Shown here one piece after another: positions 1-2,511 of a stretch of DNA of 64,000 nucleotides. Each line of letters opens with the position of its first letter. The stretch's first letter is position 1. The notes under the pieces are model-generated. The model was not told the origin of the DNA, did no database searches, and was given only the letters and a program-made list of their open reading frames with translations. Source of the DNA: Sulfurimonas xiamenensis (GTDB taxonomy: Bacteria > Campylobacterota > Campylobacteria > Campylobacterales > Sulfurimonadaceae); NCBI RefSeq assembly GCF_009258045.1, contig NZ_CP041166.1, positions 868,001 to 932,000 on the forward strand. The letters run 5' to 3'. The translations under genes were made by a program, and so were the position numbers.

Positions 1-616
1 CGACAGAGTAGGGCATATCCTGATACTTCTCAAACGCTTCGAAAGTCTCTTTTAGATTTTTTGTTTTTATGGTTGTCTGATTTATATTTTTAGAGTTGAT
101 TTTCTTTAGCGAAATTTTTGCACTTAAAATAACACCTGTAAGCCCCATACCTCCGCAGGTTGCATAAAAGAGTTCATCCCCTTTTTTGCAAACTTTTGTC
201 TCACCATCGGGAAGCATTATGGTGAGCTCTTCCACACATTCGCTAAAACACCCCTCTATATGATGATTCTTTCCATGAACATCACTTGCAATCGCTCCGC
301 CGAGGGTAATAAGTTTGGTTCCGGGAGTAACTTTTAAAAACCATCCGCGCTTTACTATAGAGTCTAAAATCTCACTCAGCAGCACACCGGCCTGGCATGT
401 AAGCATCCCGTTTTGCTCATCAAAGTTCAAAAAGTTGTTATAGTTTTTGCAGTAAATAATATTTTCATTTAAAGCGCTGTCGCCGTAGCTTCTGCCGTTT
501 CCATACGGGATAAATTCGGTAGTTTTTTCTAGATAATTTTTTAAGCTCTCTCTATCTCTTAGAGCAAATTTTTTGGTGATGATTTTTGGGTACATGCCCC
601 AGCTAAAGAGACTCAC
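1..616 (-). CDS. DprE1-like FAD-dependent oxidase, partial (C-terminus outside window)
   Basis: N-terminal 205 residues of an FAD-linked oxidase; the gene runs off the left edge. Translating the minus strand from a GTG at 616 gives PYGNGRSYGDS at residues 37-47 and a TPGT...LGGAIASDVHGKNHH block at about 98-119. Both are hallmarks of the PCMH-type FAD domain of DprE1, the decaprenylphosphoryl-ribose 2'-oxidase. DprE1 starts the epimerisation of polyprenyl-phosphate-ribose to arabinose. The GTG lies 2 nt after the GtrA stop, so the two are co-transcribed; an ATG at 595 is an alternative start. The UbiA-type enzyme and GtrA upstream support this role over a generic sugar-lactone oxidase. A DprE2 reductase would be expected just outside the window. 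Substrate is inferred. Confidence 0.8.
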   Translation of the reverse strand, partial: MSLFSWGMYPKIITKKFALRDRESLKNYLEKTTEFIPYGNGRSYGDSALNENIIYCKNYNNFLNFDEQNGMLTCQAGVLLSEILDSIVKRGWFLKVTPGTKLITLGGAIASDVHGKNHHIEGCFSECVEELTIMLPDGETKVCKKGDELFYATCGGMGLTGVILSAKISLKKINSKNINQTTIKTKNLKETFEAFEKYQDMPYSV

Positions 617-618
617 GG

Positions 619-1008
619 CTAATCCTTAAAGACAAATCTTTTATCAAGATAGTATTTTACTATATATCCTATACTAAGTCCAATAATAGCGCCTAAGTAT
701 TTTGCATTTTCATTTTCAAATATTGTGTCAAATCCAATCTCAAAGCCCCAAAAGATAAATGTCGTAAAAACTCCCATAAGTGAGTAGAGAAAAAATTTTT
801 TGCCATCATCCTTTTTACTCTTTGGAATATGAAAAAAGATATATTTTTTATCTAAAATATATTTTGATATCAGGCCTGCAGCCGTTCCGACAAACATTGC
901 TATATAGAGTGATAAAAATCCCTCATAAATCAGAAAGCTTATGTATTGAAACGCTATATTGAGCGCAGTTGAGAGAAGTGCAAAGAGCGTGTATCTGATG
1001 GCAATCAT
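619..1008 (-). CDS. GtrA-like small membrane protein
   Basis: A 129-residue protein with four hydrophobic segments and a basic C-terminus, matching the GtrA/DPMS-associated family. Members are proposed to move or hold polyprenyl-phosphate sugars at the membrane. I chose the ATG at 1008 because it overlaps the UbiA stop in an ATGA arrangement; the frame is open to a start at 1044 inside the UbiA gene, which is less likely. It sits between the UbiA-type transferase and the DprE1-like oxidase. Mycobacteria have the same association, where Rv3789 (GtrA family) neighbours DprE1. The family assignment is good; the exact role is inferred from context. Confidence 0.75.
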   Translation of the reverse strand: MIAIRYTLFALLSTALNIAFQYISFLIYEGFLSLYIAMFVGTAAGLISKYILDKKYIFFHIPKSKKDDGKKFFLYSLMGVFTTFIFWGFEIGFDTIFENENAKYLGAIIGLSIGYIVKYYLDKRFVFKD

Positions 1009-1886
1009 ATTAGTTTTACAATTCCTATAAAACAGATAAGCCAAGAAAGAATAGTTAGTTTTAAAAATTTATCTTCAATGACTATTTTTGTAGGATTGCC
1101 GCTATTTTCTTCTACAAAAGTTATCTGCATATAGCGGATAACTCCAAGGATTACAAAAAAAGAAGTAAGATAAAGATAGTTTGAGTCGAGTCTTTTTGTA
1201 ACTTCGGGTGAAATAGTGTATAAAATATAGCTCATAATTACAACGCCCGCCATTAAAACCATAGATGCGTTTACAAACTCAAGGTTGTAACCGTCAATGT
1301 TTTTGCGTGTTTCTTGACCTTCTAATGAGAGGAGAACGTCATCTCTTCTTTTTGCAAGAGCCAAAAAAAGTGCCAAAAGAAATGTCATAAGAATTATCCA
1401 CATAGAGAGTTCTATATCTGTTACAGCCCATCCTGCAAAAAGTCGTAAAACAAAACCTGTAGCGATGATAAATATATCCAAAACGGCAATATGTTTTAGT
1501 TTAATAGAGTAAAAAATATTTAAAATAAAGTAGATAAGCAAAACAAGAAAAAGAGTGCTGTTTAAGAAAAAAGATAGAAGAAGGGAAGATGAACAGAGCA
1601 GTAAAATAAGTAAAACGGCACTCCTTTTTGAAACACTTCCATTTGCAAGAGGACGATTTTTTTTAGTTGGGTGCGCTCTGTCTTCTTTAATATCTAAAAG
1701 ATCATTAAAAATATAAACACTGCTTGTTAAAACACAAAAGAGTAAAAAAGCCAAAAGAGTGTTAATATTATCATCTATATTTGAAAATGAGAACGAAAAC
1801 AGAAGCGGCATAAAAATAAAGAGATTTTTTATATATTGATGAACTCTAAAGAGCTTGAAAATGTCACTCAAAAAGACAACCTTCAC
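1005..1886 (-). CDS. UbiA-family prenyltransferase, DPPR synthase type
   Basis: A 293-residue integral membrane protein with about eight hydrophobic segments. The Mg2+/diphosphate motif NDLLDIKED lies at residues 61-69 and is followed by RAHPTKKNRPLANG. That extended string is typical of decaprenyl-phosphate phosphoribosyltransferases (UbiA/Rv3806c type), which transfer 5-phosphoribose from PRPP to a polyprenyl phosphate; quinone-forming UbiA enzymes differ there. It is the first gene of a minus-strand set with GtrA and the DprE1-like oxidase. Together they suggest polyprenyl-phosphate-arabinofuranose synthesis for a surface glycan. It is transcribed divergently from the DJ-1 gene across about 70 bp. 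Confidence is high for the family and moderate for the substrate. Confidence 0.85.
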   Translation of the reverse strand: MKVVFLSDIFKLFRVHQYIKNLFIFMPLLFSFSFSNIDDNINTLLAFLLFCVLTSSVYIFNDLLDIKEDRAHPTKKNRPLANGSVSKRSAVLLILLLCSSSLLLSFFLNSTLFLVLLIYFILNIFYSIKLKHIAVLDIFIIATGFVLRLFAGWAVTDIELSMWIILMTFLLALFLALAKRRDDVLLSLEGQETRKNIDGYNLEFVNASMVLMAGVVIMSYILYTISPEVTKRLDSNYLYLTSFFVILGVIRYMQITFVEENSGNPTKIVIEDKFLKLTILSWLICFIGIVKLI

Positions 1887-1953: not shown

Positions 1954-2511
1954 ATGAACAGAGTTTTAGTGCCGTTGGCAGATGGATTTGAAGAGATAGA
2001 AGCGATAAATATCATAGATGTTTTAAGAAGAGGCGGTATTGAGGTTTTGGTTGCTTCTTTGGGTGAGAAGGGTTCAGTTAGAGGTGCTCATAATGTTACA
2101 GTTTTGTCTGATATGTCCATAAATGATGTAGTCGTAGAGAATCTTGATATGATAGTGCTGCCTGGCGGCTGGGACGGAACAGTTGCTCTGCGTGATGATG
2201 CAAATGTACAACGAATTCTTAAAGAGATGGATAAAAAAGGCAAAAGCATAGGAGCAATCTGTGCAGCACCTCTTGTGCTTGAGAGTGCAGGGGTATTAAA
2301 ACATAATTACACATGTTATCCGACTATTGAGAAGCAGATAAGAGAGGATGGATTTAGCGATAAAAACATGGTTGTGGAAGATGCTAATGTTTTGACATCG
2401 CGCGGACCTGCAACGGCTATCTGTTTTGGATTGCAAATCGTTAAAAAACTTCAAGGCGAGAAAAAGTACAGTGAGGTAAAATCTGCTCTTTTGGCCGAGT
2501 ACTGTGATTAA
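1954..2511 (+). CDS. DJ-1/PfpI (ThiJ) family protein
   Basis: A 185-residue single-domain protein of the DJ-1/ThiJ/PfpI superfamily. The nucleophile-elbow cysteine is C103 in GAICAAPLVLE. The acidic partner is in GFEEIEA (E14 or E16), and the second glycine-rich turn is LPGGWDG near residue 69. Members are glyoxalase-III/deglycase-like or redox chaperones, and I cannot tell which this is. A strong Shine-Dalgarno, GAAGGAG, precedes the ATG. The stop codon shares a TTAA with the stop of the convergent methyltransferase gene, a 4-nt overlap of termini. Length is normal for the family. Confidence 0.85.
   Translation: MNRVLVPLADGFEEIEAINIIDVLRRGGIEVLVASLGEKGSVRGAHNVTVLSDMSINDVVVENLDMIVLPGGWDGTVALRDDANVQRILKEMDKKGKSIGAICAAPLVLESAGVLKHNYTCYPTIEKQIREDGFSDKNMVVEDANVLTSRGPATAICFGLQIVKKLQGEKKYSEVKSALLAEYCD

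Follow-up and report, generated by a model that had tools for sequence, protein, structure and literature searches.

The question raised by the minus-strand gene group at the start of this stretch of the Sulfurimonas xiamenensis chromosome is whether it encodes the synthesis of polyprenyl-phosphate-D-arabinofuranose (D-Araf), and to which acceptor this sugar would be delivered. The window, which is the whole stretch of 64,000 nucleotides that was analysed (G000:C1:868001-932000, in a single-contig genome of 1,916,242 bases), begins in the middle of a six-gene operon and cuts it in half. Inside the window are the genes of a UbiA-type synthase (1005..1886), a GtrA-family membrane protein (619..1044) and the first 205 of the 430 residues of a DprE1/NoeH-type FAD oxidase (window 2..616; full gene G000:C1:867324-868616), all three coupled on the minus strand as described in the initial annotation, and the motifs reported there (NDLLDIKEDRAHPTKKNRPLANG for the synthase, PYGNGRSYGDS and HGKNHH for the oxidase) are present as written. 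The initial annotation had also proposed to look further to the left for a DprE2-type reductase and an arabinofuranosyltransferase. Beyond the left edge, on the same chromosome and strand and reading leftwards, the oxidase gene is directly followed by that of a DprE2/NoeO-type SDR reductase (243 residues, G000:C1:866596-867327), and then come a PMT_2-type GT-C transferase with a predicted ArnT fold (491 residues, G000:C1:865124-866599), which is a candidate for the transferase sought, and a HAD-IB phosphatase (192 residues, G000:C1:864549-865127). The six genes form an unbroken run: four of their five junctions (UbiA/GtrA, DprE1/DprE2, DprE2/GT-C and GT-C/HAD) are ATGA overlaps, and at the fifth (GtrA/DprE1) there is a gap of 2 nucleotides. 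The operon is abutted by a divergent gene (window 1954-2511) starting MNRVLVPLADGFEEIEAINIIDVLRR, which by eye is DJ-1/PfpI-like; this neighbour also borders the operon in most of the related Sulfurimonas loci.

The first gene is assigned to the UbiA-superfamily polyprenyl-phosphate phosphoribosyltransferases (PPPRS or DPPR synthase type, NoeC-like). The open reading frame has 293 residues from a GTG start, but the true start is probably the TTG at 1871, because the homologues have about 288 residues. The protein matches Pfam PF01040 (3.7e-27) and the NCBIfam model of decaprenyl-phosphate phosphoribosyltransferase, NF008977 (232.2 bits, 8.3e-69), and when compared with the structure of DPPR synthase (PDB entry: 8j8j) by phmmer the E-value is 4.5e-35, the next protein being at 6e-6. 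The HMM comparison suggested in the initial annotation thus places the phosphoribosyltransferase model far ahead of the quinone and haem models, since 4-hydroxybenzoate octaprenyltransferase (the best quinone model) scores 47 bits and haem O synthase 34 bits; no family with another named function exceeds 70 bits. The score is narrowly below the equivalog cut-off of NF008977 (232.2 versus 234 bits); this cut-off is not a marker of function, as the rhizobial NoeC scores 126 bits. The signature NDxxDxxxDxxHPTKxxRPxAxG is present, and its residues N61, D62, D65, D69, H72, K75, R78, P79, A81 and G83 are invariant among 15 Campylobacterota UbiA homologues. One other UbiA locus is found in the genome, at 1642293, having a stronger general UbiA score than the operon protein, and this is taken to be a putative menaquinone enzyme. 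For the GtrA protein, the E-value against PF04138 is 1.5e-9 and the score on NF037976 is 172.8 bits (cut-off 50); translation more likely starts from the ATG at 1008, giving an ATGA overlap with the UbiA stop codon.

The oxidase matches the Pfam family FAD_binding_4 (4.7e-17) and scores 370 bits (1.8e-110) on the NCBIfam DprE1 model NF053785, clearly over the sugar-lactone (aldonolactone) oxidases at 57 bits, so that the HMM check proposed for this protein also points to DprE1. This is in agreement with the phmmer comparison with the DprE1 structure (PDB entry: 4aut), which gives 4e-69, against 1.1e-5. The score is below the DprE1 equivalog cut-off (370 versus 500 bits); the rhizobial NoeH (401 bits) is also below 500, and so this cut-off is apparently a test of close orthology, not of function. 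Tyr44, Lys116, Trp207, Gln303, Gln305 and Lys388 do not vary among the 40 aligned sequences, including that of Mycobacterium smegmatis, and we take these columns to be the FAD- and substrate-site residues Y60, K134, W230, Q334, Q336 and K418 of the M. tuberculosis DprE1; the HGKNHH motif is conserved as well. The column of the mycobacterial active-site cysteine that reacts with benzothiazinones (Cys387/394) is occupied by Ala357, and an alanine is found in this column in 39 of the 39 non-mycobacterial DprE1 sequences aligned, including NoeH of Rhizobium sp. IRBG74. The natural resistance of M. avium has been attributed to an alanine at this site (PMC3206020), and the constant alanine predicts that covalent DprE1 inhibitors fail on these enzymes. 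In the DprE1 tree the mycobacterial branch is very long and 17 forks are open, which is why the deep relationships have been left unused.

For the reductase, the best match among solved structures is the mycobacterial DprE2 (21gq_C, 7.6e-29; next match 1.3e-12), and the score on the NCBIfam DprE2 model NF053786 is 178.7 bits (1.6e-52). As for the oxidase, this is below the equivalog cut-off (250 bits), which the rhizobial NoeO also fails to reach (192.4 bits). The catalytic Ser-Tyr-x3-Lys arrangement of the SDR enzymes is present (SSVAG...YGSAK).

The GT-C transferase matches PF13231 (PMT_2, 4.4e-17); a sequence search of the PDB gave no match. Its predicted model (pLDDT 83.2, pTM 0.84) has ArnT (PDB entry: 5ezm) as the best fold match, with a Z-score of 26.0 and an rmsd of 3.8 over 412 residues, and this match covers residues 2-452 of 491, spanning both the membrane part and the soluble part. 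Other fold matches are Pmt4 (Z 23.6), the mycobacterial arabinofuranosyltransferases AftD, EmbB and AftA (Z 17.0, 14.8 and 13.0), with which the GT-C fold is shared, and oligosaccharyltransferases. The ArnT fold by itself does not indicate a specificity for D-Araf. When the orthologue group is defined by an E-value below 1e-200, it is found in 10 of 397 Campylobacterota genomes, and in all ten a DprE1 gene is present and adjoins the transferase gene. The HAD-IB protein matches PF12710 (9.8e-34), and its catalytic residues, DFDGT (DxDxT), S112, K154 and D175/D179, are invariant in 14 homologues. A homologue is encoded within four open reading frames downstream of DprE1 in 41 of 80 loci from several phyla, as opposed to none of 638 other open reading frames; these 80 loci were picked by DprE1 similarity and are non-independent, and the count is read as linkage, with no p-value. 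BLAST found no HAD/UbiA fusion among the loci compared. Judged by the Pfam E-values of the UbiA, GtrA and FAD_binding_4 matches and the phmmer E-values of the synthase and the oxidase, chance is excluded as an explanation of the three genes in the window.

The initial annotation had compared this gene set with the mycobacterial pathway of decaprenyl-phosphoryl-arabinose (Rv3806c, Rv3807c, DprE1, DprE2, Rv3789 and Emb/Aft). This comparison holds for the families, the synthase, DprE1 and DprE2 being homologous, but the sequence comparisons indicate that the rhizobial noeCNHOP operon is the better comparator: the oxidase is 34% identical to DprE1 of M. smegmatis and 44% identical to NoeH, which is encoded on the symbiosis plasmid of Rhizobium sp. 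IRBG74 (NC_022536, A. pusense; L128). On this plasmid the genes are contiguous in the same order (UbiA-GtrA-DprE1-DprE2-transferase), with identities of 45% for DprE2, 43% for GtrA and 32% for UbiA, and DprE1, DprE2 and GtrA have a common NCBIfam scoring pattern in the two organisms. The same order, ending in NoeP, is found in Sinorhizobium alkalisoli, and noeCHOP of Azorhizobium caulinodans is also counted with the closest systems. The Sulfurimonas operon differs from noeCNHOP in the separate HAD-IB gene that follows and in its PMT_2/ArnT-fold transferase; a NoeP homologue was considered for the latter and rejected, as there is no detectable sequence similarity. There are no nod genes near the Sulfurimonas module, and therefore its acceptor differs from the Nod factors. 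In IRBG74, deletion of noeP abolishes Nod-factor arabinosylation and deletion of noeN reduces it, and NoeN has been suggested to be a phosphatase (PMC5080398). By gene order NoeN of IRBG74 (L128:7582-8004, NC_022536.1) is a GtrA-family protein, scoring 147.6 bits on NF037976 (cut-off 50), and because of this membership a flippase role would fit NoeN better than a phosphatase role.

Compared with mycobacteria, the Sulfurimonas HAD phosphatase replaces the unrelated Rv3807c type, Cys387 of DprE1 is exchanged for alanine, there is one small transferase instead of many, and the lipid is probably undecaprenyl. The three-component pentofuranose systems of Citrobacter youngae O1/O2 (PMC11127046) resemble the Sulfurimonas operon in having a PPPRS, a HAD-type phosphatase, a flippase and a GT-C transferase in one cluster, and the Araf versions of such systems carry DprE1/E2 homologues (PMC11127046). 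They differ in having a MATE flippase where Sulfurimonas has GtrA, and a PPPRS-PRP fusion where Sulfurimonas has a free HAD protein. Likewise, a PPPRS and a D-Araf donor occur in a Gram-negative organism in the type IV pilin pathway of Pseudomonas aeruginosa; by the account that PMC11127046 gives of Harvey et al. 2011, this pathway differs in its pilin acceptor and its phosphatase, PA7_6246. Within the Campylobacterota, arabinofuranose is found on the surface of Campylobacter jejuni, in the HS:15 and HS:41 capsules (PMC10615251); this is L-Araf, derived from UDP-glucose by means of a nucleotide-sugar mutase, and the route has no enzymes in common with that of Sulfurimonas.

The operon is most probably a complete pentofuranose donor-and-transfer module, by which polyprenyl-phosphate-D-Araf is made, flipped and moved to a periplasmic or surface acceptor, and the D-Araf reading of the initial annotation is supported at this level of sequence comparison. 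The computed evidence comprises gene content, order, coupling, families, key residues, the predicted fold of the GT-C protein and co-occurrence, and the individual reactions, including flipping, are assigned by analogy with relatives. In the proposed pathway, the UbiA enzyme would move 5-phosphoribose from PRPP onto a polyprenyl phosphate, with undecaprenyl phosphate a likelier lipid than decaprenyl phosphate, as argued for Gram-negatives (PMC11127046), so that the lipid named in the mycobacterial comparison would not apply here. The 5-phosphate would then be removed by the HAD-IB enzyme, after which C2 of the lipid-linked ribofuranose would be oxidised by DprE1 and reduced by DprE2 to the opposite configuration, giving polyprenyl-phosphate-D-arabinofuranose. 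GtrA, the proposed flippase, would bring this lipid to the periplasmic face, where the ArnT-fold GT-C enzyme would transfer D-Araf onto the acceptor.

The acceptor is most likely a surface polysaccharide, either an O antigen or an exopolysaccharide, and less likely a pilin or another glycoprotein. The neighbouring genes speak for the polysaccharide: genes for chain length or export come after the module in several loci, with a Wzz-type chain-length protein encoded there in this genome, in L025/L048 (both from the same related Sulfurimonas genome) and in the related Sulfurimonas locus L049, and in L030 the module lies in a polysaccharide cluster, among genes of a Wzx-type flippase, a glycosyltransferase, a UDP-GlcNAc 2-epimerase and an initiating sugar transferase. 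In several Sulfurimonas genomes housekeeping genes follow the module, without a polysaccharide neighbour, and for this reason the acceptor is not fixed by the context; nor is it decided by the presence of pilin-like and O-antigen-ligase/polymerase-type genes, since both are present in the genome. Genes of a Wza-type export protein, a Wzc-type tyrosine kinase and a CpsB-type phosphatase are seen directly after the module here (L002:12536-16451, left of the window); in the related Sulfurimonas that were compared they are absent from this position, where pyrD stands in several cases.

It is conceivable, although unlikely, that the same donor pathway serves a protein, with the GT-C enzyme O-arabinosylating a type IV pilin-like protein. 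The genome encodes five proteins with an N-methylation signal, the protein O-mannosyltransferases are among the fold matches of the GT-C model (Pmt4, as given above), and a PPPRS and D-Araf are involved in pilin O-glycosylation in P. aeruginosa, going by what PMC11127046 says of Harvey et al. 2011. Against this, no pilin gene adjoins the module, its informative neighbours are polysaccharide genes, and ArnT, the best fold match, is an enzyme that transfers a sugar to lipid A. It is improbable that the lipid-linked product stays a ribofuranose or becomes another epimer, for a glycan with Ribf or Xylf. There are related three-component systems for Ribf or Xylf, and ORF12 (GT136) takes both donors (PMC11127046), but here the DprE1 and DprE2 types are both intact and conserved together, and Araf glycans are tied to DprE1/E2 homologues, Xylf being tied to an ORF13-type epimerase (PMC11127046). 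An unrelated pair of genes, with a prenyltransferase of quinone or haem synthesis lying beside a gulonolactone-type oxidase, is rejected as having a negligible likelihood, because the weak matches of these members of broad superfamilies to such groups are far outscored (232 versus 47 and 34 bits for UbiA, 370 versus 57 bits for the oxidase), a second UbiA locus is present whose general UbiA score is higher, DprE2 is next door in the operon and the synteny extends across families.

The D-Araf module is accessory in the genus and in the phylum: among the 397 Campylobacterota genomes sampled, 19 have DprE1, and within the genus it is found in 33 of 135 genomes (24 of the 79 high-quality ones). 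G340, of the same genus, carries the module, and the initial annotation was right to name the Campylobacterota. With few exceptions the Campylobacterota loci found keep UbiA, GtrA, DprE1 and DprE2 together, and in several Sulfurimonas loci the module lies between the same housekeeping genes. DprE1 sequences labelled as Thermodesulfobacteriota and Cyclobacteriaceae are placed inside a mostly Campylobacterota clade (supports 98/90 and 99/96), which suggests horizontal transfer of the module, these sequences being MAG contigs for which mis-binning is possible. Phages were considered as carriers and rejected, as a search of 50,697 phage records gave no DprE1 match. Modules of this kind are spread over many phyla and end in differing transferases, the transferase slot being filled in other loci by unrelated multi-spanning proteins.

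Several loci depart from the common arrangement. In L053, L054, L069, L077 and L078 the slot after DprE2 is taken by multi-spanning proteins without a Pfam match, possibly of unrecognised GT-C families. Two UbiA-GtrA-DprE1-DprE2 sets are present in G263 (L034 and L042), and two DprE1 genes in G397, of the same genus as the window. In G060, of the same family (L040:10743-11783), no UbiA gene adjoins GtrA, and because a Na/Ca exchanger gene occupies its place the synthase is elsewhere or missing. The locus L041 (G324) is divergent: its DprE1 is about 50% identical and has a 14-residue insertion shortly after HGKNHH, the UbiA gene comes after DprE1, and there is no adjacent GtrA.

Mycobacteria, nodulating rhizobia and a small number of further Gram-negative bacteria are known to have the pathway, and both the pathway and this type of module have already been described in Gram-negatives (PMC11127046, PMC5080398). 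A literature search (Araf or arabinose in Sulfurimonas; DprE1 in Campylobacter) found no description of it in the Campylobacterota. The polyprenyl-phosphate-D-Araf pathway, which is a drug-target pathway in tuberculosis, is extended by this operon to free-living, sulfur-oxidising Campylobacterota, where it is seen as a compact, accessory and apparently horizontally moving cassette. The free HAD-IB gene, which is tightly linked to this cassette, may encode the phosphatase of the pathway, and the ArnT-fold transferase offers a small candidate enzyme with which D-Araf transfer might be studied in organisms other than mycobacteria. There is about an even chance that Sulfurimonas and its relatives decorate a surface glycan with D-Araf by means of this ArnT-fold GT-C protein as a new family of polyprenyl-phosphate-D-Araf-dependent transferases, and that the module has a swap site in its last position, where unrelated multi-spanning transferases would pass one and the same donor on to differing acceptors.
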